Source: a virus. Taken from it: a stretch of DNA of 51,097 nt. The DNA lies in IMG/VR virus record IMGVR_UViG_3300050821_005377, positions 1 through 51,097 of that record. One strand, written 5' to 3'. A model generated the notes under the pieces. That model had not been told where the DNA came from, ran no database searches, and worked only from the letters and a program-made list of their open reading frames with translations. Positions 3,112-41,905 of the stretch are shown piece after piece. A program made the position numbers and the translations under genes. The stretch's first letter is position 1. The number at the start of each line of letters is the position of its first letter.

Positions 3112-3235
3112 TGTTCCGCTCCATCATGTTGCCGTTCATTCGCCCCGCGCCACGATGCCCCGCAATCGGCCATAGATCGTCCGTGGTTGACTTTGCCGAC
3201 CGGGCCGCTACTGCCCTAGCTCACCGCGCTTGCGC

Positions 3236-3493
3236 TCATTGGCGGCCATCTGTGGTCGATTGGCCGGGTGCATATTCGCTTGGCCTTGCAATTCGCATTC
3301 CCTGTGCGTACAACTCATTAACGAATGCACCTAACGCACGTTGCATCCTGTTATGAGCCATGCCTACGGCCCTATCCTCATTCGTGTCTGTGACGTCATC
3401 GAGCACTCACCATTGTGCTATGCCCTCTTGATCCGTCACACGAATAGCTGGCGTGAACGGCCCTGATCCTACTGTGGTTGCGTAGATTGCCAT
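3236..3493 (-). pseudogene. Small gene interrupted by an in-frame TGA
   Basis: The first part starts MAIYATTVGSG at 3493 after a good Shine-Dalgarno (AGGAGCAAGACA) and reaches TGA at 3409-3407 after 28 residues (...GIAQW). The same frame then continues for 56 protein-like residues (VLDDVTDTNEDRAV... to TTDGRQ) and ends with TGA at 3238-3236. The two parts read as one 85-residue protein with UGA after Trp28. Options are a nonsense mutation, stop-codon readthrough, reinitiation at the GTG just after the stop, or a sequencing error. TGA is an ordinary stop elsewhere in the genome, so general recoding is unlikely. Confidence 0.55.
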
Positions 3494-3528
3494 TGTCTTG
3501 CTCCTATGTTTGCGCTAGCAATGGAAAA

Positions 3529-3548
3529 AGCGCGGGTATGACCGCGCT
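3529..3548 (-). terminator. Rho-independent terminator
   Basis: AGCGCGG / CCGCGCT stem of 7 bp with a 6-base loop, followed on the minus strand by TTTTCC. It lies after the gene ending at 3580 and before the interrupted gene, so 3580-3909 may be its own transcription unit. Confidence 0.8.
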
Positions 3549-3579
3549 AATTCCCAACTCGTATCTAGAGGCTAGGGCG

Positions 3580-3909
3580 TTAGCAACGCTGCCCGCTCGC
3601 CGCCTGCCCTGCCAGCCAATCCCCAAGGCTCTCGCTCTCCACCTTCGGCTGCGCCTTGCGCTCCGTCACCGGCCCGACGGCGATTGAGAGCTTGCCAAAG
3701 TTGTAACCGAACTTGAGTTCGTATCCCGCTGGCAGCTTATCCGCGAAACACGCTTGCATACTCGCCTCGAACGTGTCCCGCTGGACTTTGTAGGCGCGGT
3801 AGGCGTCCTTGCTTGACTGATACTGCGACCAGCAGTGGCTTGCCTTGTTCTCACCGATAGCGTTAATCAGGGCCTGCTCATCCAGCGTGCGCCAATCTTC
3901 CTTAGCCAT
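3580..3909 (-). CDS. Unknown protein, 109 aa
   Basis: Starts MAKEDWRTLDEQALINAI after a strong Shine-Dalgarno (AGGAGAG, 4 bases from the ATG). The N-terminal 60 residues look helical; the middle (YELKFGYNFGKLSIAVG) looks beta. The C-terminus ends AASGQRC. No family recognised. First clear gene of the leftward left cluster, and followed by a terminator. The 14 bases of its ribosome site and start (AGGAGAGAGCTATG) recur exactly before the holin-like gene at 37529. Confidence 0.75.
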   Translation of the reverse strand: MAKEDWRTLDEQALINAIGENKASHCWSQYQSSKDAYRAYKVQRDTFEASMQACFADKLPAGYELKFGYNFGKLSIAVGPVTERKAQPKVESESLGDWLAGQAASGQRC

Positions 3910-3918
3910 AGCTCTCTC

Positions 3919-4170
3919 CTATTGCCCCGTAGGGTTGTTGTGTGTCGTGGCGATTTCAGGAATACCACAACCGCCAACATGGTAGCACGGACAGATCGTG
4001 AACGCGATCACGATGCCGTGAGCCATTGTCACGACCGCGTGATGTTGCACCGCGAGGTGGCATTGTGCGGTGCGGTGTGCCAGCCCTAGCGCCAGCCGCC
4101 ACCCCACCCCCAAAATCACGCGCGCGAGTTGGCCCAGTGTTGCCCCGCAAATTTTTGTTGTGGCGATCAA
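3919..4170 (-). CDS. Possible hydrophobic protein, 83 aa
   Basis: A leftward frame beginning with TTG (MIATTKICGATLGQ) with two weakly hydrophobic segments and five cysteines. Its stop lies directly before the Shine-Dalgarno of the gene at 3909. There is no convincing ribosome site at its own start and the region holds palindromes, so it may be leader or regulatory DNA. Nothing else is visible in 3910-4221 beyond the dyad at 3995-4014. Confidence 0.25.
   Translation of the reverse strand: MIATTKICGATLGQLARVILGVGWRLALGLAHRTAQCHLAVQHHAVVTMAHGIVIAFTICPCYHVGGCGIPEIATTHNNPTGQ
3995..4014. promoter_or_regulatory. Operator-like dyad ATCGTGA-N6-TCACGAT
   Basis: A perfect 7-bp inverted repeat with a 6-base spacer, in the divergent region between the leftward cluster and the rightward late genes. 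The GTGA-N6-TCAC core matches the layout of CRP-type sites and resembles a dyad near 2540. It could control the divergent promoters. Confidence 0.4.
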
Positions 4171-4221
4171 CCCATACCGATCAGGCTAGGGGCCACTTGT
4201 GAGTTGATGGAGAGATTTCAC

Positions 4222-4250
4222 TTGACATTTTTTTGAAAAGAGAGTATAAT
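4222..4250 (+). promoter_or_regulatory. Consensus sigma70 promoter for rightward genes
   Basis: TTGACA (4222-4227), a 17-base spacer, and TATAAT (4245-4250): a perfect housekeeping-sigma promoter. The expected transcript start is near 4257, one base before the ATG at 4258, so the first message would be leaderless or nearly so. It reads into the GIY-YIG gene and the packaging and head genes. Confidence 0.85.
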
Positions 4251-4257
4251 GGTGACA

Positions 4258-4698
4258 ATGGGAAATTCTATGTTGGAAGGATTGGCTGATTTCGAGAACT
4301 TTGGGCGCCCCCATCCTGGGACTGGGGTGTATTTGCTTATTGGTAAGGGTGAGGTGTTGTACGTTGGGAAGTCCTTGAACCTGTTTCATCGAATTGGCCA
4401 GCACATCAGCGCGATGCGTAGGCACATGAAAGGGAAGCGGCCTTATAAAGGCAAAGAGGAACTCCCCTTTATCGAGTTCGATCGGATCATGGTTAAGTGG
4501 GTTCCCATTGAACGGATCGATGCTGAGGAGATGAAGCTCATTCAGCGGTATCTTCCCGAGTGCAACGACCTAATGAAACGAGTTCATATCGATGTGTCGG
4601 ATGTTCCCGGGGTGGCGAAGCTCATCGCCTCTGCTCCTCGAACGATTTCGCTTCGACATGGCAGCGCCGAAGGCGTCATTCGTAGAAGGGCCGCGTGA
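4258..4698 (+). CDS. GIY-YIG family endonuclease
   Basis: A 146-aa nuclease-like protein. The GIY-YIG core is visible: GVY at residues 23-25, YVG at 35-37, the catalytic-type Arg (LFHRIGQH) near 45, and a Glu in AEEMKLIQRYLPECN near 90. There is no separate DNA-binding domain. An upstream ATG at 4249 lies inside the -10 hexamer and cannot be on the message, so the start is the ATG at 4258 (leaderless) or 4270 (weak GGAA upstream). The stop overlaps the next start (GTGATG), and the last codons (IRRRAA) form its AGAAGG ribosome site. The position directly before terminase fits either a homing nuclease or a packaging-associated nuclease; which is inference. Confidence 0.8.
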   Translation: MGNSMLEGLADFENFGRPHPGTGVYLLIGKGEVLYVGKSLNLFHRIGQHISAMRRHMKGKRPYKGKEELPFIEFDRIMVKWVPIERIDAEEMKLIQRYLPECNDLMKRVHIDVSDVPGVAKLIASAPRTISLRHGSAEGVIRRRAA

Positions 4699-5327
4699 TG
4701 GGGGCTCTTACTAAAGCTGGAGTTGCCCTTAATCAATATCGTGAGCGCCATCATGCCGTCGCTCGGCTCATTGCCATCGGTGCGACGCAGGATCATATCC
4801 GTCGCGTTACAGGGATATCCTTCCGGCGTGTTACGATCCTAATGGCCGATCCCTCATTTCAGGAGCTCGTCACCCTCTATCGTGAGGATGTAGAGAAGGC
4901 TTGGAACCGGAACGTTGACCAATACCTCGACCTTGGCATCGGCAATATGATCCAAACCGAGGCGATGATCGCGGATCAACTCGAAGAGGCCGACGAGGCT
5001 GGGGAAAAGCTTCCCCTCTTAACCCTCAACCGCCTCTCACAAGACCGTGCCGATCGCTTTGGCTACCCAAAGACCTCCCAGGTCGAACACAAACACGACT
5101 TCGCCGCCCTCCTTGACCGCGCGATCGAACGCAGCGGCAAGGCCCGCGAGGTGAAAGTCATCGAAGCCACTGTCGTTGAAGCCAGCGAAAGCCCACGGGA
5201 AATCAGCCCCCCTACGTCGTCGTTGGCTTCCGGGCCGGAGGTAGCGAAGCCCCCCAATGCAGCGCAGCCTCCGGCCCGACCTTCATTCGCAGCCATCCTA
5301 ACCACGAAGCGGCGGAGGGTTGCCTAA
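4698..5327 (+). CDS. Terminase small subunit-like protein
   Basis: A 209-aa protein. The N-terminus (about residues 10-50: YRERHHAVARLIAIGATQDH then IRRVTGISFRRVTILM) has the form of a helix-turn-helix as in small terminases. A central helical region includes LNRLSQDRADRFGYP. The C-terminal third is A/P/S-rich and ends TTKRRRVA. In the family it recognises the packaging site and loads DNA onto the large subunit. The start at 4698 overlaps the GIY-YIG stop; the GTG at 4695 is an alternative. Identification rests on the HTH, size and position before the large subunit. Confidence 0.75.
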   Translation: MGALTKAGVALNQYRERHHAVARLIAIGATQDHIRRVTGISFRRVTILMADPSFQELVTLYREDVEKAWNRNVDQYLDLGIGNMIQTEAMIADQLEEADEAGEKLPLLTLNRLSQDRADRFGYPKTSQVEHKHDFAALLDRAIERSGKAREVKVIEATVVEASESPREISPPTSSLASGPEVAKPPNAAQPPARPSFAAILTTKRRRVA

Positions 5328-5408
5328 CAGTCTCGGACTCCGGAGAGCCCCGTAACTTCTGGCTGCTCACTCCGTCACGGTTTAAGACAGCAGAACGGTA
5401 ATCGGAGA

Positions 5409-5427
5409 GGGCCGTGGAAAGCGGCCC
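5409..5427. other. Hairpin before the large terminase gene
   Basis: GGGCCG-tggaaag-CGGCCC is a perfect 6-bp stem, 17 bases upstream of the terminase ATG, in a 117-base gap between terminase genes (5328-5444). A self-complementary CTCCGGAG lies near its left end. It could be an mRNA control element, or part of a packaging recognition site. No tRNA fold was found here. Confidence 0.4.
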
Positions 5428-5444
5428 ACCACTAGGGTCTGGGG

Positions 5445-6962
5445 ATGGACGAAAGCCTGGTTAATTGGCTTGCGAGCGTAAGCAAAGACCCATTTGCTTA
5501 TGTGCTGGGCGCTTGGGAATGGGGCTCGCCCGGCCGCCTTGCCAATTTCAAAGGCCCCAACTATTGGCAAGAGGATCAACTCAAGGGCATCCGTGATCGG
5601 CTCCAGTCCACTACCAACCTCACTGAGGCCCTCCAGCCCATCCTCGAAGCCACCGCCTCTGGCCACGGCGTAGGCAAGTCCGCCGAAGTCTCTTGGATTT
5701 GCAAATGGGGGATCGACACCCTCCCCGATACCCGTGGCGTGGTCACCGCCAATACCGAGCCGCAGCTAAAGGGCAAGACCTGGGCCGAGCTAGGCCGGTG
5801 GCACGCGGCCTCGATCACGAAGGATGTGTTCAAGTTAACGGCTACTTCGTATTACCACCCCGAATACGAACGCACTTGGCGCCTCGATCAGGTCCCCTGG
5901 TCCAAGAACAATCCCGAAGCCTTCGCGGGGCTCCATAACCAAGGCCGTCGCATCCTCCTGATCATGGACGAAGCCTCCGCTATCGACGACATTATTTGGG
6001 AAACCAGTGAAGGCGCCCTGACTGACAGGGACACCCAAATCTTCTGGCTCGTCTACGGCAACCCGACCCGTAACTCCGGCCGCTTCAAGGAATGTTTCCC
6101 TGGGGGGATGTTTGCCAAATACTGGCACACGCGGAGCGTGGACTCCCGCTCGATCGACTTCACCAACAAGGAACAAATCTCCAAATGGATCGACGCCTAT
6201 GGCGAAGACTCCGACTTCGTCCGCATTCGCGTCTACGGCCAGTTCCCCCGCGTTGGCGAAATGGAGTTCTTCAATGCTGCCGAAATCACCGACGCCATGT
6301 CCCGCGACGCCACCTCCTCCCTCACCGACCCGCTTGCCCTTGGGGTGGACGTGGCTCGATATGGCAAGAACGCTTCTGTCATTTTCCCGCGCAAGGGACG
6401 GGACGCTCGTACCTACCCTAGAGAACGATTTCAAGGGCTTTCAACTGTACAACTAGCGGAGAAGGTCTTCGACGCCAACTTCCGCCTGCACGCGGATGGG
6501 ATCATGGTGGATGGGGGCGGCGTGGGCGGTGGTGTCGTAGACCAGATCAGGCACAAGGCCCTCTTCTGCTACGAGGTACAATTTGGGTCGAAGGATATGA
6601 CCCCACACCGCTCCTTCGGCTCCGAACAAGAGCGCTACGCTAACATGCGCAGCGGCATGTACGGCGCCCTGCGCGCCTGGACGAAGACCGGTTGCCTCCC
6701 CGACGACCCAGACCTCAAGCGCCAGTTCATGGCGATCAAATACACCTTCAACAAGCGGGATGAAATCCAACTCATCTCCAAGGAAGATATGCTCAAGCTC
6801 GACCCCGATCTCGAGCTTGACGATATCGACGCCCTCGCCTTGACCTTCTCAAACGCCCTTGCCCCGCACGAATACGCAGGGGGCGAACACGCCCACAAGC
6901 CCAACGTTGAACACGACTACGACCCCCTTGAGCGGTACGAAGACGAAGTGAGGGCGGCATGA
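5445..6962 (+). CDS. terL: Terminase large subunit (ATPase-nuclease)
   Basis: A 505-aa packaging motor. The ATPase domain shows Walker A GHGVGKS at residues 73-79 and Walker B LLIMDE at 171-176. The RNase H-like nuclease domain shows GVDVARYG (Asp302), the second acidic site in GIMVDGGG (Asp356), and a third in LDDIDALA (about 459-464). Length is normal for the family. The start is the ATG at 5445 with a weak GGGG upstream. It cuts concatemeric DNA and drives it through the portal. Its stop overlaps the next start by ATGA. Confidence 0.95.
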   Translation: MDESLVNWLASVSKDPFAYVLGAWEWGSPGRLANFKGPNYWQEDQLKGIRDRLQSTTNLTEALQPILEATASGHGVGKSAEVSWICKWGIDTLPDTRGVVTANTEPQLKGKTWAELGRWHAASITKDVFKLTATSYYHPEYERTWRLDQVPWSKNNPEAFAGLHNQGRRILLIMDEASAIDDIIWETSEGALTDRDTQIFWLVYGNPTRNSGRFKECFPGGMFAKYWHTRSVDSRSIDFTNKEQISKWIDAYGEDSDFVRIRVYGQFPRVGEMEFFNAAEITDAMSRDATSSLTDPLALGVDVARYGKNASVIFPRKGRDARTYPRERFQGLSTVQLAEKVFDANFRLHADGIMVDGGGVGGGVVDQIRHKALFCYEVQFGSKDMTPHRSFGSEQERYANMRSGMYGALRAWTKTGCLPDDPDLKRQFMAIKYTFNKRDEIQLISKEDMLKLDPDLELDDIDALALTFSNALAPHEYAGGEHAHKPNVEHDYDPLERYEDEVRAA

Positions 6963-7213
6963 ACATCACCGATGAACCAATGCCCGGCGTTGCGCCAAAT
7001 GGTACCCGTGGTTATTGGGGAATAGGCGTTAAGGGTAATGATATTCTTGTTCTAACAACTTACCTTAAAAATCTAGAACTCGCTAAGCGTTGGGCAAAAG
7101 CGGTAGCTGCAGATTATGATGAGGTGATTATCCTCGATGCCACTTTGACTTATCGTGTTTGGGATCGCGATAGTGATAATGCTAAACATGCTGCTAAGGA
7201 TGCAGCGGCATGA
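6959..7213 (+). CDS. Small protein, 84 aa, unknown
   Basis: Starts MNITDEPMPGVAPNG; ATGA overlap at both ends places it in a coupled set between terminase and portal. It shows alternating beta and helix (GNDILVLTTYLKNLELAKRW). Its DNA is visibly more AT-rich than the flanking genes, which may mean recent acquisition. No family recognised. Confidence 0.75.
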   Translation: MNITDEPMPGVAPNGTRGYWGIGVKGNDILVLTTYLKNLELAKRWAKAVAADYDEVIILDATLTYRVWDRDSDNAKHAAKDAAA

Positions 7214-7407
7214 GCCTCTCCGCCCCCACTCCTCCAGCCCCCGTCCTTCCTCAAGCCCCCTCGGCCCCACCTGCCTTTGGCATGCAGAACCAAGGGCAAA
7301 AGCCACAGGCGAAATCAAGCCAGCCAACATTCTTGGGGTCAGGCCTCGTCGCTTCCCAACAGCAACAAGGCAACAAATCTCTGATCGGCGGAGCGGGGAT
7401 GTCATGA
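7210..7407 (+). CDS. Proline/glutamine-rich small protein, 65 aa
   Basis: Low complexity: P/A/S-rich first half (SAPTPPAPVLPQAPSAPP) and Q-rich second half. Probably disordered. Short P/Q-rich proteins before the portal are common in podoviruses, but the role is unknown. Coupled by ATGA at both ends. Confidence 0.65.
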   Translation: MSLSAPTPPAPVLPQAPSAPPAFGMQNQGQKPQAKSSQPTFLGSGLVASQQQQGNKSLIGGAGMS

Positions 7408-7565
7408 TCGTCCCCTTCGCCAAGGGCCAGAAGCAAGGTCAGCCAGCGCAGCAGGCCCAGCCCTCTGAAACCGACATGCTCATGGCCCTTGCCACTATGC
7501 ACTCCATGGGTCGCATCCCGAAACCTAAGGGCGCTCCCGCTCCTACGGAGTCGCCCAGTGCCTGA
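7404..7565 (+). CDS. Small protein, 53 aa, unknown
   Basis: Starts MIVPFAKGQKQGQPAQ and has a short helix (SETDMLMALATMHSMG) followed by a proline-rich end. The start at 7404 is fixed by the ATGA overlap with the previous gene. Its final codons provide the CGGAG ribosome site of the portal gene. Confidence 0.65.
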   Translation: MIVPFAKGQKQGQPAQQAQPSETDMLMALATMHSMGRIPKPKGAPAPTESPSA

Positions 7566-9375
7566 ACAATCGGCCTACAACTCCGGCTTCATGCGCCTTC
7601 ACCCCGCGATGCAGGCGAAGGTCAACCGCGCGTTGATGCGCCAGAACATAAGGCTTGACACCCCTGAGCAACTCTTTAGACAGAAAGCCGAGTCCCGTCT
7701 CCTGGGACTTCGAATTAATCGCTACTCTTGGTGGGTACACGGCAGAGAGCTTGCTGACTATATCCTCCCTCGCCGTTATAAGTGGCTCATCACTCCTAAT
7801 CAACAGCAACGAGGGAGTCCTATCAATCAGCACATATTGGACTCCACCGGGACCTTGGCCGCACGGAACCTCGCCGCTGGAATGATGATGGGGTGCAGCG
7901 ACCCCACCAAGCGCTGGTTCCGCTACAAGATAAACAATATCGACTCGACTCAGACCTCTCCCATCTCGTTGTGGTTGTCTCAGGTTGAGCGATTGATCAA
8001 TTTGATCTTGTTGCAGAGCAACTTCTACGACTCCCTCGCCATCTTCTACTTCGATCTCGTCGTGTTCGGCACGGCGGTGATGCTCATCTACGAGGACTAC
8101 GAAAATGTTATCCGCTGCTTTAACCCCTGCTTTGGGGAATACTACATCGATCAAGATGGATACTACCGACCCAATGTGTTCGCACGTGAGTTCACTAATA
8201 CAGTGGACCAATGCGCGAATAGATTTGGAGTTGAGAACCTCTCTCCTAGCACAGCTAGGCTTTGGACCGAAGGTGGTACTTCCCTCACGCGCGAGCTAGT
8301 CGTCGCCCACCTCGTAGAGCCCAACGAAGATGGCCGCAAGTACGGGGTCCCAGAGTTCTTCCCTTTTCGTGAGTGTTATTGGGAGTGGGGTGGATCAGCT
8401 TCTCCCCAAGGCGGCGGAGGAGGTAATGCTCGCGGGCTGCTTACATCGAGGGGCTATCATGAGAACCCAGCCATCACCTGCCGATGGGACTTGGTGTCGA
8501 ATGACGCCTACGGCCGATCCCCCGGCATGGACGCCCTCCCCGACATAAAACAACTCCAAGTCGAAACCAAGCGCCTCTCGCAGGGCATCGACAAGATGGT
8601 CAACCCACCCATGGTGGGCGACATCCAACTCAAAAACCAACCCGCCTCGCTCCTCCCCGGCGGGGTCACCTACGTCAACGGCATGACCGTCTCCGGCAAA
8701 GCAGGCTTCGCCCCAGCCTACCTTGTCAATCCCCAGGTCAAGGAAATGATGGAGCAGATGGCGGACGTGCGTTCGCGCATCAAGGAGACCTTCTACAACA
8801 ACCTCTTCCAAGTCATCTCCCAATTCGAGACCCGATCCAATGTCACCGCCACTGAAATCGACGCCCGGCGAGCCGAGGCTATGCTTATGCTTGGGCCAGT
8901 GCTTGAACGACTCAATCACGAAGCATTCGCCCCAATGCATGAGCGAATATTCGGAATTGCATCGCGGGCTGGTATACTGCCGCCAGCACCTCGTGAGATT
9001 GCCGGTGCCAACATCCACACCCAATTCACCTCAATGATCGAACTCGCTCAGAACTCTGCGCAGGCCGCAGGGATCGAGCGCCTCTTTAGCATGATTGGTG
9101 GCCTCGCTGGTATCGACCCTGCTGCTGTTGATAACGTCGATATTGACTATGGTCTGGACAAAGTCAGTTACCTTTACAACAACGATCCCAAGCTCATCCG
9201 CTCTCCTGACCAACTTGCAGCTATTCGCAATCAGCGTAATCAAGAAATGCAACAACAGCGAGTTGCTGCTCAGGCAGGGACCATCAAAGATATCGCCGCT
9301 GGTGCTAAGTCTCTCAGCGATGCCTCCCCCGGCCAAGGTTCGCTCATGACCAAGCTGACAGGCCAAGCCCCATGA
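7558..9375 (+). CDS. Portal (head-to-tail connector) protein
   Basis: A 605-aa connector of the T7/podovirus type. Recognisable parts are the N-terminal helical segment, the conserved region around LDSTGTLAARNLAAGMMMG and TKRWFRY (about residues 95-125), a central beta region, and the C-terminal helical crown with MEQMADVRSRIKETFYNN. The GTG at 7558 is preferred over upstream in-frame ATGs because GGAG lies 7 bases before it and it overlaps the previous stop; ATG 7591 is the next option. Twelve copies form the ring through which terminase packages DNA. The C-terminus is Q-rich. Confidence 0.92.
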   Translation: MPEQSAYNSGFMRLHPAMQAKVNRALMRQNIRLDTPEQLFRQKAESRLLGLRINRYSWWVHGRELADYILPRRYKWLITPNQQQRGSPINQHILDSTGTLAARNLAAGMMMGCSDPTKRWFRYKINNIDSTQTSPISLWLSQVERLINLILLQSNFYDSLAIFYFDLVVFGTAVMLIYEDYENVIRCFNPCFGEYYIDQDGYYRPNVFAREFTNTVDQCANRFGVENLSPSTARLWTEGGTSLTRELVVAHLVEPNEDGRKYGVPEFFPFRECYWEWGGSASPQGGGGGNARGLLTSRGYHENPAITCRWDLVSNDAYGRSPGMDALPDIKQLQVETKRLSQGIDKMVNPPMVGDIQLKNQPASLLPGGVTYVNGMTVSGKAGFAPAYLVNPQVKEMMEQMADVRSRIKETFYNNLFQVISQFETRSNVTATEIDARRAEAMLMLGPVLERLNHEAFAPMHERIFGIASRAGILPPAPREIAGANIHTQFTSMIELAQNSAQAAGIERLFSMIGGLAGIDPAAVDNVDIDYGLDKVSYLYNNDPKLIRSPDQLAAIRNQRNQEMQQQRVAAQAGTIKDIAAGAKSLSDASPGQGSLMTKLTGQAP

Positions 9376-37723: not shown

Positions 37724-37833
37724 ACGACCCGGAGCGGTGTTACAGCTTGGTTGGGCCGCAGCGGGAGCAGTGCTTCCAATCTACCCGAGGCAGTAACTCT
37801 GTTCCAGCGCCGTCGATCTGTACAGGGTGCTAG
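37675..37833 (+). CDS. Doubtful cysteine-containing C-terminal reading frame
   Basis: A frame inside and beyond the preceding gene encodes FSLDDPERCYSLVGPQREQ and ends SICTGC. It is open from a TTG at 37567 and from a GTG near 37671; no good ribosome site. Its stop TAG shares the CTAG at 37830-37833 with the stop of the opposite-strand helicase gene. It may be an embedded spanin-like gene or chance. No terminator separates the two convergent operons here. Confidence 0.2.
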   Translation, partial: RLRLHPARRAREPFSLDDPERCYSLVGPQREQCFQSTRGSNSVPAPSICTGC

Positions 37834-39035
37834 TCAAGGGCCTTGTAGAGCTTCTGGCCGTTGGCCTCCCCAGCCTCTTCGATCTGGCCGGATAACTCCA
37901 TGAGTTGGAGGACCCGGATCACGGAGTGGTTGGGGACCAACCCACAGGCGAAGTGGATTACGCGGTACTGTGGGACCGGCTTCCCTGCGCGGCGGATGAA
38001 ATCCACGATCTCTTCCATGGCCCGCCCGTCGAGGGTGGTGGACCCCGCGGAGAAGAGGAGGGGCATGTTGATCTCTGCCTCTTCGAGCCAGCTAAGGGCG
38101 GTGGTGAAGGTGTCCGGGGTCAGGACGAGTTCGTCGCCCTTGTCAATCGCCGCGATCATTGATAGCTTGTAAAGGTGCACCTTGCGTCGGCTATTGTAAT
38201 GCACCAGCTTCGGATGGGAGGGCTTGGTTCCTTCGCCACCCCGGCGCCATTCCATGACGAGTTCTTCCCACTCCCTTGTGGTGGTGAACTCCCCGATGCA
38301 GCCGTAGATGGAGTTGAGGTCGTGGACGAGATCAGGATCAGGAGTGCGGATAACTTCGGCGAAATCATCGGTGAGCCTTTGTTCGTCGGAGTAGATTAGG
38401 ATGATGCGAGAGGTGAAGCCTTGGTCCCAGGCGAACTCGGGCATGAATTTCATTAGGTTACTCGGGGTAGAACCTGCTAACATGTTTAGCTGGGGGCGGT
38501 CGATCGTCGTATCCCTTGACTTCGTAATACGCGTCTCGCGGTAAGGTACCGTCACATCGTAGAAGGTCGTCAGGCCCCCGATAATGTCGTGACTGTACTC
38601 GCTCATGAACGCGCTCCACTCGTCCATTATCATCATCGCGGTGTGGTAGTCCAATATCCCTTTTCCCTTCGGCAAAACATGCTTCTTCGAAGACCTTGAT
38701 AGAAAATCCACAAGGCTTGCCATCGTCATCGAAGTAGGTGCGATACAGAAGTCGGGTAATTCGGCCAAGAATTTCCGGGCCGACATAATGGTACGCGTCT
38801 TTCCAATGCCAGGAGGCGCTACCAAGATTGTGTACAGGTTTGGGAAGATTTGGTCGGTTGTGGTCAACCAGACCTTCTGTTCGAGGACCCCTGCGAGGGT
38901 TGTGATTGCGGTCCATCGCCTGAATAGCTCCGATGATCCTAGATTATCTGTGTAGTTTACGAAGGCTCCTATCCAAGATGGCAATCGGCGGCGTGCGCTT
39001 CCGTTGGTCAGTCCCTTTGTACGATTTAAGGCCAT
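37830..39035 (-). CDS. DUF3987-like ATPase / helicase
   Basis: A 401-aa P-loop protein. Walker A APPGIGKT at about residues 73-80 and Walker B AMMIMDEW near 140 are clear. The flanking text (LPSWIGAFVNYTDNLGSSEL, LAGSTPSNLMKFMP, QGFTSRIILIYSDE) fits the DUF3987 / phage helicase group, often placed with replication genes in phages that lack a T7-type primase-helicase. ATG 39035 is chosen for GAGGAAAG upstream; TTG 39056 is an alternative. It overlaps the end of the polymerase gene by about 90 bases. Probably the replicative helicase (inference). Confidence 0.7.
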   Translation of the reverse strand: MALNRTKGLTNGSARRRLPSWIGAFVNYTDNLGSSELFRRWTAITTLAGVLEQKVWLTTTDQIFPNLYTILVAPPGIGKTRTIMSARKFLAELPDFCIAPTSMTMASLVDFLSRSSKKHVLPKGKGILDYHTAMMIMDEWSAFMSEYSHDIIGGLTTFYDVTVPYRETRITKSRDTTIDRPQLNMLAGSTPSNLMKFMPEFAWDQGFTSRIILIYSDEQRLTDDFAEVIRTPDPDLVHDLNSIYGCIGEFTTTREWEELVMEWRRGGEGTKPSHPKLVHYNSRRKVHLYKLSMIAAIDKGDELVLTPDTFTTALSWLEEAEINMPLLFSAGSTTLDGRAMEEIVDFIRRAGKPVPQYRVIHFACGLVPNHSVIRVLQLMELSGQIEEAGEANGQKLYKALD

Positions 39036-40446
39036 CCGGATTGCTTTCCTCGTCAAATTTGCCCCAGTTCCAGCCGGTGGCTACGCCGTAGGGGATTGTA
39101 AAGTCTCGGCCACTATCAAGTCGTATGGACTGTTGTAAGGAACTCTGGACCAATGGAATGATTTTGTCCTCTGCGTCTTCTGGATACTGGACCAAAACGG
39201 CGTCATGAATTTGCATAAGAAGCTGACACGACTGACTTCTCCACACTGCAAGCATTCCTCTATTAAGGATGTCAGCAAGGCTGCCTTGAGGGTCATAGGC
39301 AATAGCCTCACGAAGAGTCGAGTCATCGTTTCGTCTCCCAAAAAACCAGCGCTTGCGGCCGGTTAAGGTGGTTAGGTACCCATCCTCACGGAGGGTACGA
39401 TCTACTCGGGCGTGCCAGCGGAGATGGGCTGGGAAGGCGCGGAAGTATTTGGGTTGGAAGTCTTCGATGAGACTAATCTCAACTTTAGCCTGCGCGGCAA
39501 GGGTGCGAGGTTTGCCTCCATAGTTAGTGCCATGGCCAATCTTCTTGCACATGAAACGTCGATCGTAATGTCGGTAGTAAGGCCGCTCTGCAAGCTCTCG
39601 GTCACGTCTAAGGTTACCAGTCCAAGGGACATCATCTGGCCAGACGAGTTTAGCAACTGTAGTGTGCAGGTCTCCTCCTTCACACGCGTCAAGGTATCTC
39701 CAATCGTCGAAAAGGTTTCCTTCGATGGCCCCGACGACCCTGGACTCGCCTTGCTCGGCGTCGAGGTAGGCGAGCTTATATCCTGGATCGGATACGAACA
39801 CAGATCGTAAAGATTCTTCGATATTTTGTAGATTTGTTCCGGTTCCAAATTCGGAAAAGCTAGAGCTAAGCCTGCCTGTAGTCGTCCCCGCAATATTATA
39901 CGACGTTCGCATTCTTCCATCTGGATCGATCTCCGTCTTGAGCATGCTGATCTTCTTCTGCATATCACGCATGACCAGCATATGCGCGACGATCAATCTC
40001 GCAGAGAAATAGCTCTCCAGTTTCTCAAGAGCCTCGCGATTGACTGTAGGTCTTCCGCCTCGTCGGATGGGTGGAAGACCAAGGTAGTCGTAGAAAAGGA
40101 GATGCAAATCCTTATTCGATCGCCAGTTAAACTGCCAGAGTCCAAGGCCGTGGCCAACGATGCGATTAAGCTGCTCTTCGAGTTGGTCGAGCTTGGTGAA
40201 GTATTCGTCAATGACTTCGGCGCGGCGGGCTTGGTCGATGAGGACGCCGCGGCAGCGCATTTCGAGGATGGGGGCTTGGAGATCACGGGAGAAGGAATAG
40301 GTCCCCGACGTTTGATTATCGAGTTGAGGAAGGAGGACATTTAAAACCTCTCGCGTGATGACACAGTCCAAGCCATTATAGCACCACTCTTTTTCTTGGG
40401 CAGAGAGGTCTTCTGGCCCTAGTAGGTCTGTGCGGATTACCTTCAT
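38944..40446 (-). CDS. DNA polymerase, family A (with exonuclease motif III)
   Basis: A 500-aa polymerase. Motif A YLDAEQGESR (Asp229, Glu234); motif B from R297 to Y309 (RFMCKKIGHGTNY; Arg297, Lys301, His305, Tyr309 match E. coli Pol I R754, K758, F762, Y766); motif C QIHDAVL (His414-Asp415-Ala416, where most relatives have HDE). The N-terminus WCYNGLDCVITREV (Tyr23, Asp27) is exonuclease motif III, whose motifs I and II are in the upstream gene. The start lies two bases after that gene's TAG (TAGCTATG), so reinitiation is likely. The 3' end overlaps the helicase gene. Confidence 0.93.
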   Translation of the reverse strand: MKVIRTDLLGPEDLSAQEKEWCYNGLDCVITREVLNVLLPQLDNQTSGTYSFSRDLQAPILEMRCRGVLIDQARRAEVIDEYFTKLDQLEEQLNRIVGHGLGLWQFNWRSNKDLHLLFYDYLGLPPIRRGGRPTVNREALEKLESYFSARLIVAHMLVMRDMQKKISMLKTEIDPDGRMRTSYNIAGTTTGRLSSSFSEFGTGTNLQNIEESLRSVFVSDPGYKLAYLDAEQGESRVVGAIEGNLFDDWRYLDACEGGDLHTTVAKLVWPDDVPWTGNLRRDRELAERPYYRHYDRRFMCKKIGHGTNYGGKPRTLAAQAKVEISLIEDFQPKYFRAFPAHLRWHARVDRTLREDGYLTTLTGRKRWFFGRRNDDSTLREAIAYDPQGSLADILNRGMLAVWRSQSCQLLMQIHDAVLVQYPEDAEDKIIPLVQSSLQQSIRLDSGRDFTIPYGVATGWNWGKFDEESNPDGLKSYKGTDQRKRTPPIAILDRSLRKLHR

Positions 40447-40448
40447 AG

Positions 40449-41468
40449 CTACTCATCGCGTTTTATGGTTGTAACCTTCTCACGCATATTCTTCCAACTG
40501 CCGTGGTCCGTGAATAGAGAGCCTAGGTAGCCTAGCCCCTTAAGTGACTCAGGTTGTAATGCGTGGCTGAGCAACATCGTATCGTGCTCACAATTGTAGA
40601 CTTTTAGCCCATAACTACGCCAAAGGAATGCAATATCATACATGCCGTTCTGCATCACTTTAGGGATAGCTCGATCCATGAGTAGCTTGCGTATAAAGCC
40701 CCAAGCTTGTCCCTCGCTTCGCTGATCAGGCCAATAGCTTCTTCCCTTTCGCCTTCGGTCAAAGATTGGAATAACGAGAGCATCTCCGGTTGAAGGTGCG
40801 AACCCAATGCAGGTGATCTGGACACCAGCTGTTTCAATATCCACAGCCAGCGACTGGCATCCTCGGATGTGTAGGGCATAGAAGTCCTCTAAGTCGGAGA
40901 TGGTTTCGGGGATATGGACGGAGACGGCGGGGCGACGGATTTCAGGGAAGGTGGACTCGCGGGCGGCTTTGATGAGGTCCATTACGGTGGTGGGTCGGAG
41001 TTCCCATTGCCGGCAGACGGCGGCGGGGTGGTAAGTGGGGAGGACCTTGTAACCAGTAACAGTGCAAGTAGAAAGCTCAGTAGTTCCACGATACTTGGAG
41101 ATGGATGTTCTTCCGAGAAGCGCCCAAGATGCTGTATTTCCGAGGGCAATAATAATGTTTGGATCGACAGCGACCAGTTCTTCGCCGAGGCGGTTAAGCT
41201 CAGGGATGAATTCGGTTCGAACATATTTAGATTTGACAAGGGCCGGGTACCCGGCGATGCCTTCGGCTTTTGTTCCACAGAAGAACTCCACTTGGTTGCC
41301 GAGGGGATGGAGGGAAAACACATTTGTGAGGAAGCATTCGCTCCTATGGATACCAGCGTCCTCCAACATTCGAGTTAGCTCTTGCCCACTATAACCCACA
41401 AATGGCATACGAGCTTTTTCTTCGGCTTCGCCCCAGGCTTCGCCAACTATTGCGATTGAGCATTGCAT
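40449..41468 (-). CDS. Uracil-DNA glycosylase-like / 3'-5' exonuclease fusion
   Basis: A 339-aa protein. Residues about 5-160 form a UDG-superfamily (family 4/5-like) domain: VGEAWGEAEEKARMPFVGYS with LTNVF, LGNTAS near 110 and TYHPAAV near 146-151. Residues about 200-339 are a DnaQ-like exonuclease: motif I SLAVDIETAG (Asp210, Glu212), motif II QNGMYD (Asp278), then HDTMLLSHAL (Asp296). Motif III is absent here and starts the next gene. SPO1-type polymerases carry UDG-like, exo and pol domains in one chain; here the chain is split. Whether the glycosylase is active is unknown. Confidence 0.85.
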   Translation of the reverse strand: MQCSIAIVGEAWGEAEEKARMPFVGYSGQELTRMLEDAGIHRSECFLTNVFSLHPLGNQVEFFCGTKAEGIAGYPALVKSKYVRTEFIPELNRLGEELVAVDPNIIIALGNTASWALLGRTSISKYRGTTELSTCTVTGYKVLPTYHPAAVCRQWELRPTTVMDLIKAARESTFPEIRRPAVSVHIPETISDLEDFYALHIRGCQSLAVDIETAGVQITCIGFAPSTGDALVIPIFDRRRKGRSYWPDQRSEGQAWGFIRKLLMDRAIPKVMQNGMYDIAFLWRSYGLKVYNCEHDTMLLSHALQPESLKGLGYLGSLFTDHGSWKNMREKVTTIKRDE

Positions 41469-41659: not shown

Positions 41660-41905
41660 TTATCCCCTCCAGGTTACGGCTTTGACTGCCCACATCTGCG
41701 CACCCTGCGCTTCTGTGATAGCGATCGAGCAGAGCCGAACTATCTCAGGATTGTCACCACGCTCGGCGTATCCCTTGCGGAAGTCGTCGAGGTGGTCGAT
41801 GATATTGGCGTAGAGCTTCTTGAGTTTGTCAACATCTCCCATCCCGGATGGGTTGAAGGAGAGGCCAACGGCTTTTTCGCCAAAGGTCTGTGCGCGTTCG
41901 TCCAT
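41660..41905 (-). CDS. acb2: Acb2/Tad1-like hairpin protein (anti-CBASS/Thoeris sponge)
   Basis: An 81-aa helical-hairpin protein. The pattern GEKAVGLSFNPSG near the start, two central helices (VDKLKKLYANIIDHLDDFR) and the C-terminal AITEAQGAQMWAVKAVTW match, as I remember it, the Acb2/Tad1 hairpin-domain family. Acb2 proteins sequester cyclic nucleotides and so block CBASS; some also bind Thoeris signals. The match is from memory of the family pattern, not a search. The gene is coupled to the SSB-like gene upstream (GGAGGAG then TAAC ATG). Confidence 0.7.
   Translation of the reverse strand: MDERAQTFGEKAVGLSFNPSGMGDVDKLKKLYANIIDHLDDFRKGYAERGDNPEIVRLCSIAITEAQGAQMWAVKAVTWRG

Follow-up and report, generated by a model that had tools for sequence, protein, structure and literature searches.

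Two neighbouring genes on the minus strand of virus record IMGVR_UViG_3300050821_005377 raise the question of whether the 3'-5' exonuclease site of a DNA polymerase can be divided between two proteins and still operate as one site. The whole 51,097 bp of this record was analysed and is referred to below as the window. The features relevant to the question are listed here, with counts given for the 137 distinct gene pairs described further on.

nt 40449–41468, minus strand: gene 1 (339 aa; AlphaFold2 pLDDT 90), encoding a UDG and, from the 3'-5' exonuclease domain, its N-terminal two thirds
nt 40995–41459, minus strand: UDG superfamily domain, residues 4–158, family 4/UdgX-like fold (Pfam PF03167, 2e-19)
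nt 40485–40916, minus strand: incomplete DnaQ-like exonuclease domain, residues 185–328 (Pfam PF01612; Klenow alignment Z 12.3)
nt 40833–40841, minus strand: ExoI, D210, I, E212 (Klenow D355/E357), invariant in 137/137
nt 40635–40637, minus strand: ExoII, D278, aligned with Klenow D424, invariant in 137/137
nt 40452–40484, minus strand: C-terminal tail of gene 1, REKVTTIKRDE (K336 in 128/137, T334 in 115/137)
nt 40453–40455, minus strand: TGA in frame with the polymerase, shortly ahead of the gene 2 start
nt 40444–40451, minus strand: junction of the two genes, TAG-CT-ATG
nt 38944–40446, minus strand: gene 2, ExoIII helix and family A polymerase (500 aa)
nt 40381–40446, minus strand: residues 1–22 of gene 2 (N-terminal segment, MKVIRTDLLGPEDLSAQEKEWC), longer than its counterpart in single-chain polymerases
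nt 40366–40380, minus strand: ExoIII, Y23-N-G-L-D27 (Klenow Y497/D501), Y and D invariant in 137/137
nt 39064–40215, minus strand: family A polymerase domain with conserved D220, K301, H305, H414 and D415 (Pfam PF00476, DNA_pol_A 78–461, 8.9e-40)
nt 37830–39056, minus strand: downstream neighbour, a DUF3987/phage primase-family gene (PF13148, phrog_14296)

Gene 1 ends with ...TTIKRDE-TAG (stop at nt 40451–40449), followed by CT and then the ATG of gene 2 (nt 40446). The first-pass annotation had placed the UDG-exonuclease and polymerase genes two bases apart, with ExoI and ExoII in the former (D210/E212, D278) and ExoIII in the latter (Y23, D27), and both statements are confirmed, the spacing to the base. 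The TGA it reported in the polymerase frame (nt 40455–40453) is real, and confines any -1 shift to the last sense codon of gene 1 (GAG). With this TGA, and without a slippery heptamer at the junction in the window sequence, its view that a frameshift is hard to fit also holds. Two genes upstream of gene 1, an 81-aa protein (nt 41660–41905, minus strand) matches the Pfam family Acb2_Tad1_hairpin with a score exceeding the gathering threshold (E 1.4e-7) and is a possible anti-CBASS/anti-Thoeris sponge.

The UDG part of the gene 1 model aligns with 1ui1 (Z 19.6; 1.6 Å over 151 residues), and the protein scores 80 bits against TIGR00758, for which the curated family 4 UDG cut-off is 125. In the structure alignment the ORF begins at the equivalent of 1ui1 residue 32 and, given this start, the N-terminal (Fe-S) cysteines of family 4 UDGs are presumably absent. 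The exonuclease domain that follows is truncated, as the DNA_pol_A_exo1 match (residues 185–315, 2.6e-9) covers profile positions 2–123 and ends at 123 of 173. Likewise, the exonuclease part of the AlphaFold2 model matches Klenow 324–479 only, short of Y497/D501. When gene 1 is modelled on its own, the last 11 residues (329–339) have a pLDDT below 50, yet they are conserved among relatives. Conservation of the terminal KRDE could stem from a Shine-Dalgarno sequence (AAGAGGGA) for the next start; across relatives its Arg codons are a mixture of AGG/AGA and CGN, so that the conservation lies, at least in part, at the protein level.

Gene 2 takes up the domain close to where gene 1 leaves it. In a profile search, positions 18–460 of the gene 2 profile corresponded to Klenow index 169–601 (residues 492–924), and since the alignment runs from Klenow 492 onwards, Y23 and D27 are the equivalents of Y497 and D501. 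A phmmer search of PDB with the N-terminal 80 aa of gene 2 gave no real match. The features by which family A membership was judged (the Asp of motif A, the K...H of the O helix and the H-D of motif C) are all present, K301 and H305 being found in 137/137 distinct pairs and D220 and D415 in 136/137. PHROG 17 (DNA polymerase) is covered from 544 to 799 by gene 1 and from 809 to 1232 by gene 2, and these adjoining matches identify the genes as consecutive parts of one family. The catalytic residues of ExoI, ExoII and ExoIII are all present but distributed over two chains, neither of which holds both exonuclease and polymerase. The two neighbouring genes jointly cover one ancestral chain, which is what characterises a naturally split phage polymerase.

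Two IMG/VR searches with the window proteins returned 98 rows, mostly loci holding both halves, and alignment-based scans of viral and genome contigs brought the total to 322 loci. With identical sequences discarded, 147 were split at the window's site, 51 were single-chain, 21 were split within the polymerase domain and 1 was split after a complete exonuclease domain. The 147 consist of 146 members of the window's clade (the window included) and L174. Relatives with the same break come from many metagenomes, from the isolated Caulobacter phage Kuura and from MAG contigs. In every close relative gene 2 starts at the same place and gene 1 stops at the same residue or a few residues away, the gap running from -4 nt to more than 1 kb. 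Among the 146, the gaps range from short overlaps to about 2.8 kb, 40 of them being 10 nt or less and 105 longer than 100 nt. Divided by 3, the gap lengths leave a remainder of 0 in 41 cases, 1 in 43 and 2 in 62, so no frame is preferred. In the short-gap cases the stop and start adjoin or overlap, and about half also have an upstream GAGG- or AGGA-type sequence; where the genes are closely packed, translation of gene 2 is probably coupled to that of gene 1.

Gene 1 carried an ExoIII-like motif (YNx.D after its WK) in 0 of the 146 distinct clade members. The first-pass annotation had named joined frames, or relatives with a complete exonuclease domain in one gene, as evidence against its reading, and had recommended a search for homologues with a single UDG-exonuclease-polymerase chain: neither of the former occurs in the clade (0/146), and the latter exist, outside it, both outcomes being in its favour. 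Its central claim, that the proofreading site would form only between two proteins, receives strong support from the 137 distinct pairs, in which all five catalytic residues (D210, E212 and D278 of gene 1, Y23 and D27 of gene 2) are invariant; the assembly as such we infer. T213, N274, D296 and K326 are likewise invariant in these pairs, where the commonest residue of a column has a median frequency of 66%. The retention of ExoIII in the polymerase gene, with ExoI and ExoII in the other, is hard to explain unless both proteins build one active site. Covariation between the exonuclease columns of gene 1 and residues 1–50 of gene 2 was weakly enriched among the top 100 pairs (14 vs 5.4 expected), the UDG columns giving 2 vs 5.8 expected. 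The enrichment had a Fisher p of 0.009 at the top 100 and of 0.07–0.18 at other cut-offs and, being weak and cut-off-dependent, it is not taken as proof of contact between the chains.

The single-chain polymerases indicate where the chain was broken. Those of Microcystis phage Mel-JY34 (PP438425), MW202489, the Desulfofustis phage OP947158, the IMG/VR locus L187 and others have the same three domains in the same order, with all exonuclease motifs, at 27–38% identity. They differ in being one chain of about 780–830 aa, unsplit at the point where the window pair is interrupted. In the L187 model (pLDDT 92.8) the exonuclease and polymerase parts match Klenow 324–928 (Z 32.4), and WK (338–339) and the ExoIII residues Tyr357/Asp361 lie on either side of a coil. 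Residues 341–350 of this coil are the least confident block of the exonuclease domain, and are followed by a helix (351–378) carrying Y357/D361. Judged from this model, the break is in the coil loop before the ExoIII helix, and the helix goes with the polymerase. From WK to the ExoIII Tyr there are 17–18 residues in single chains versus about 12–14 + 22–25 (~35–38) in split pairs, and the additional residues, the conserved new ends of the two proteins, may be read as association segments.

Several other explanations of the break must be weighed. As the window is a single contig, one could suspect a pseudogene in decay or a fault of sequencing or assembly, but the same break is found across the 146 distinct loci (metagenomes, Kuura, MAG contigs) and both ORFs are intact and strongly constrained, making this reading hardly credible. 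A programmed frameshift or stop read-through that fuses both frames into one protein has in its favour that in L029, L040–L042 and L081 the two ORFs share one frame with a single stop between them. Fusion is opposed by the window itself, where the polymerase frame contains a TGA close ahead of the stop and a slippery heptamer is lacking, and by the relatives, whose gaps show every phase and extend to 2.8 kb, with additional genes in them; we consider it very improbable. There is an equally slight chance that the halves are joined by splicing of an intron or intein. Group I introns are frequent in phage polymerase genes and some of the inserts encode HNH or GIY-YIG nucleases, but the gap is 2 nt in the window and many relatives overlap by 1–4 nt, leaving nothing to splice, and the gene 1 stop and gene 2 start keep their place whatever the gap. 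A search of Rfam at the gathering threshold gave no match in 14 loci, most of them with long gaps at the break site.

It is also conceivable that the two products do not assemble, gene 1 encoding a separate UDG/exonuclease and gene 2 keeping its ExoIII residues for the structure of the polymerase only. Stand-alone exonucleases have been proposed in jumbo phages beside polymerases that lack one (PMC7824862). Against this, Y23 and D27 are as invariant (137/137) as D210, E212 and D278, gene 1 lacks an ExoIII motif of its own in every relative, and its model is without the helix that bears ExoIII. This explanation is distinctly unlikely.

A tree was built from 69 representatives, and the 26 that belong to the window's clade (Kuura included) all fall into one group with support 100, which shows the break to be old and stable. 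Neighbouring the clade are the single-chain L005 and L174, and the next group consists of Mel-JY34-type single chains and polymerase-domain splits. L174, of a distant lineage, has the window's break site, but is sister to L005 (support 99), a placement suggesting that the site may have been broken twice, with an independent origin in L174. Within the window's clade the break probably arose once, in the common ancestor and in a surface loop, and a homing endonuclease insertion is a plausible origin. Unrelated genes often occupy the gap; they encode HNH (L020, and below the family cut-off L018 and L061), endonuclease VII (L084), dNMP kinase (L072), a weak GIY-YIG match just below the cut-off (L096) and unknowns, and the break site has probably been a repeated landing place for small unrelated genes since the split.

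Other interruptions were noted in this polymerase family. A second recurrent break cuts the polymerase domain directly behind NLQN, near residue 211 in gene 2 numbering, and appears at several places in the tree; its carriers include L173, L186, L192, L203, L205, L213, L325 (Vibrio phage VS-ABTNL-3) and others, with anything from an overlap to a gap of 1.8 kb. A third is seen in L324 (MW202554; nt 1727–2986 and 3138–4364), where YNCLD and a complete exonuclease are in ORF1 and the polymerase in the next ORF. In L198 (nt 4977–8252) and L223 (nt 4081–7356) an in-frame insert of about 300 aa lies in the O helix (K..HG.NY), between positions 304 and 305 of the polymerase profile. This is possibly an intein, and Pfam reported no intein family in it at E 0.01.

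Divided replicative polymerases have been described in other phages. Those of the T4-related Aeromonas phages 25 and 44RR are likewise encoded by two genes, 43A and 43B, with a homing-type insert nearby, but they belong to family B and have no UDG (PMC2988022). In phage 25 the two halves purify together and are active as a polymerase (PMC2988022), a precedent for assembly of the gene 1 and gene 2 products. The family A PolA of the MEP401/MEP402 type is closer, being encoded by two ORFs with a small ORF between them in most group I genomes, but there the exonuclease domain is in the first ORF and the break is inside the polymerase domain (PMC10580990). The phiLo family A polymerase (PDB 9qhs), a solved phage structure whose UDG and exonuclease align with gene 1 (Z 13.2), differs from the window pair in being one chain of 1122 residues. 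Caulobacter phage Kuura (OQ067476) is an isolated member of the split clade with the same break, the halves (Kuura_029 and Kuura_026) being separated by two small genes (Kuura_028 and Kuura_027) and the gene 1 counterpart annotated as hypothetical. No mention of the split was found in the available portion of the Kuura genome paper, and partial coverage of the literature yielded no report of a family A polymerase in which a break separates ExoII from ExoIII, or of such a break fixed in a whole clade. Split phage polymerases as such are already known; what is new here is a family A, UDG-bearing polymerase split through its proofreading site, clade-wide.

We consider it highly likely that the locus encodes a naturally split, UDG-bearing family A phage polymerase whose two chains associate without a covalent link and restore the exonuclease site. 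An ancient break with unchanging residues on both sides means that the two proteins very probably join. The gene 1 product would supply the UDG and most of the exonuclease fold, with ExoI and ExoII, and the gene 2 product the last exonuclease helix, with the ExoIII Tyr and Asp, fused to the polymerase. The latter helix would dock into the open fold of the former, and the conserved new ends (the TIKRDE C terminus of gene 1 and the MKIIxT N terminus of gene 2) would help to hold the chains together. The predicted outcome is a two-subunit enzyme that has polymerase and proofreading activity, the proofreading site being composite, and that also carries a UDG domain. It is rather unlikely that the UDG-exonuclease chain is a dissociable proofreading and uracil-sensing subunit, with a polymerase chain that works with or without it. 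In that case proofreading could be turned on or off in this clade by subunit exchange or expression level, for which we know of no example among family A polymerases.

On the reading preferred here, a whole clade of phages would naturally have family A polymerases whose proofreading site is composite, with catalytic residues from two separate proteins. The pair offers a direct test of trans-assembly and could serve as a natural scaffold on which to design split polymerases whose proofreading is addressable, and the three break points in one family form a series on how essential phage genes break and stay broken.
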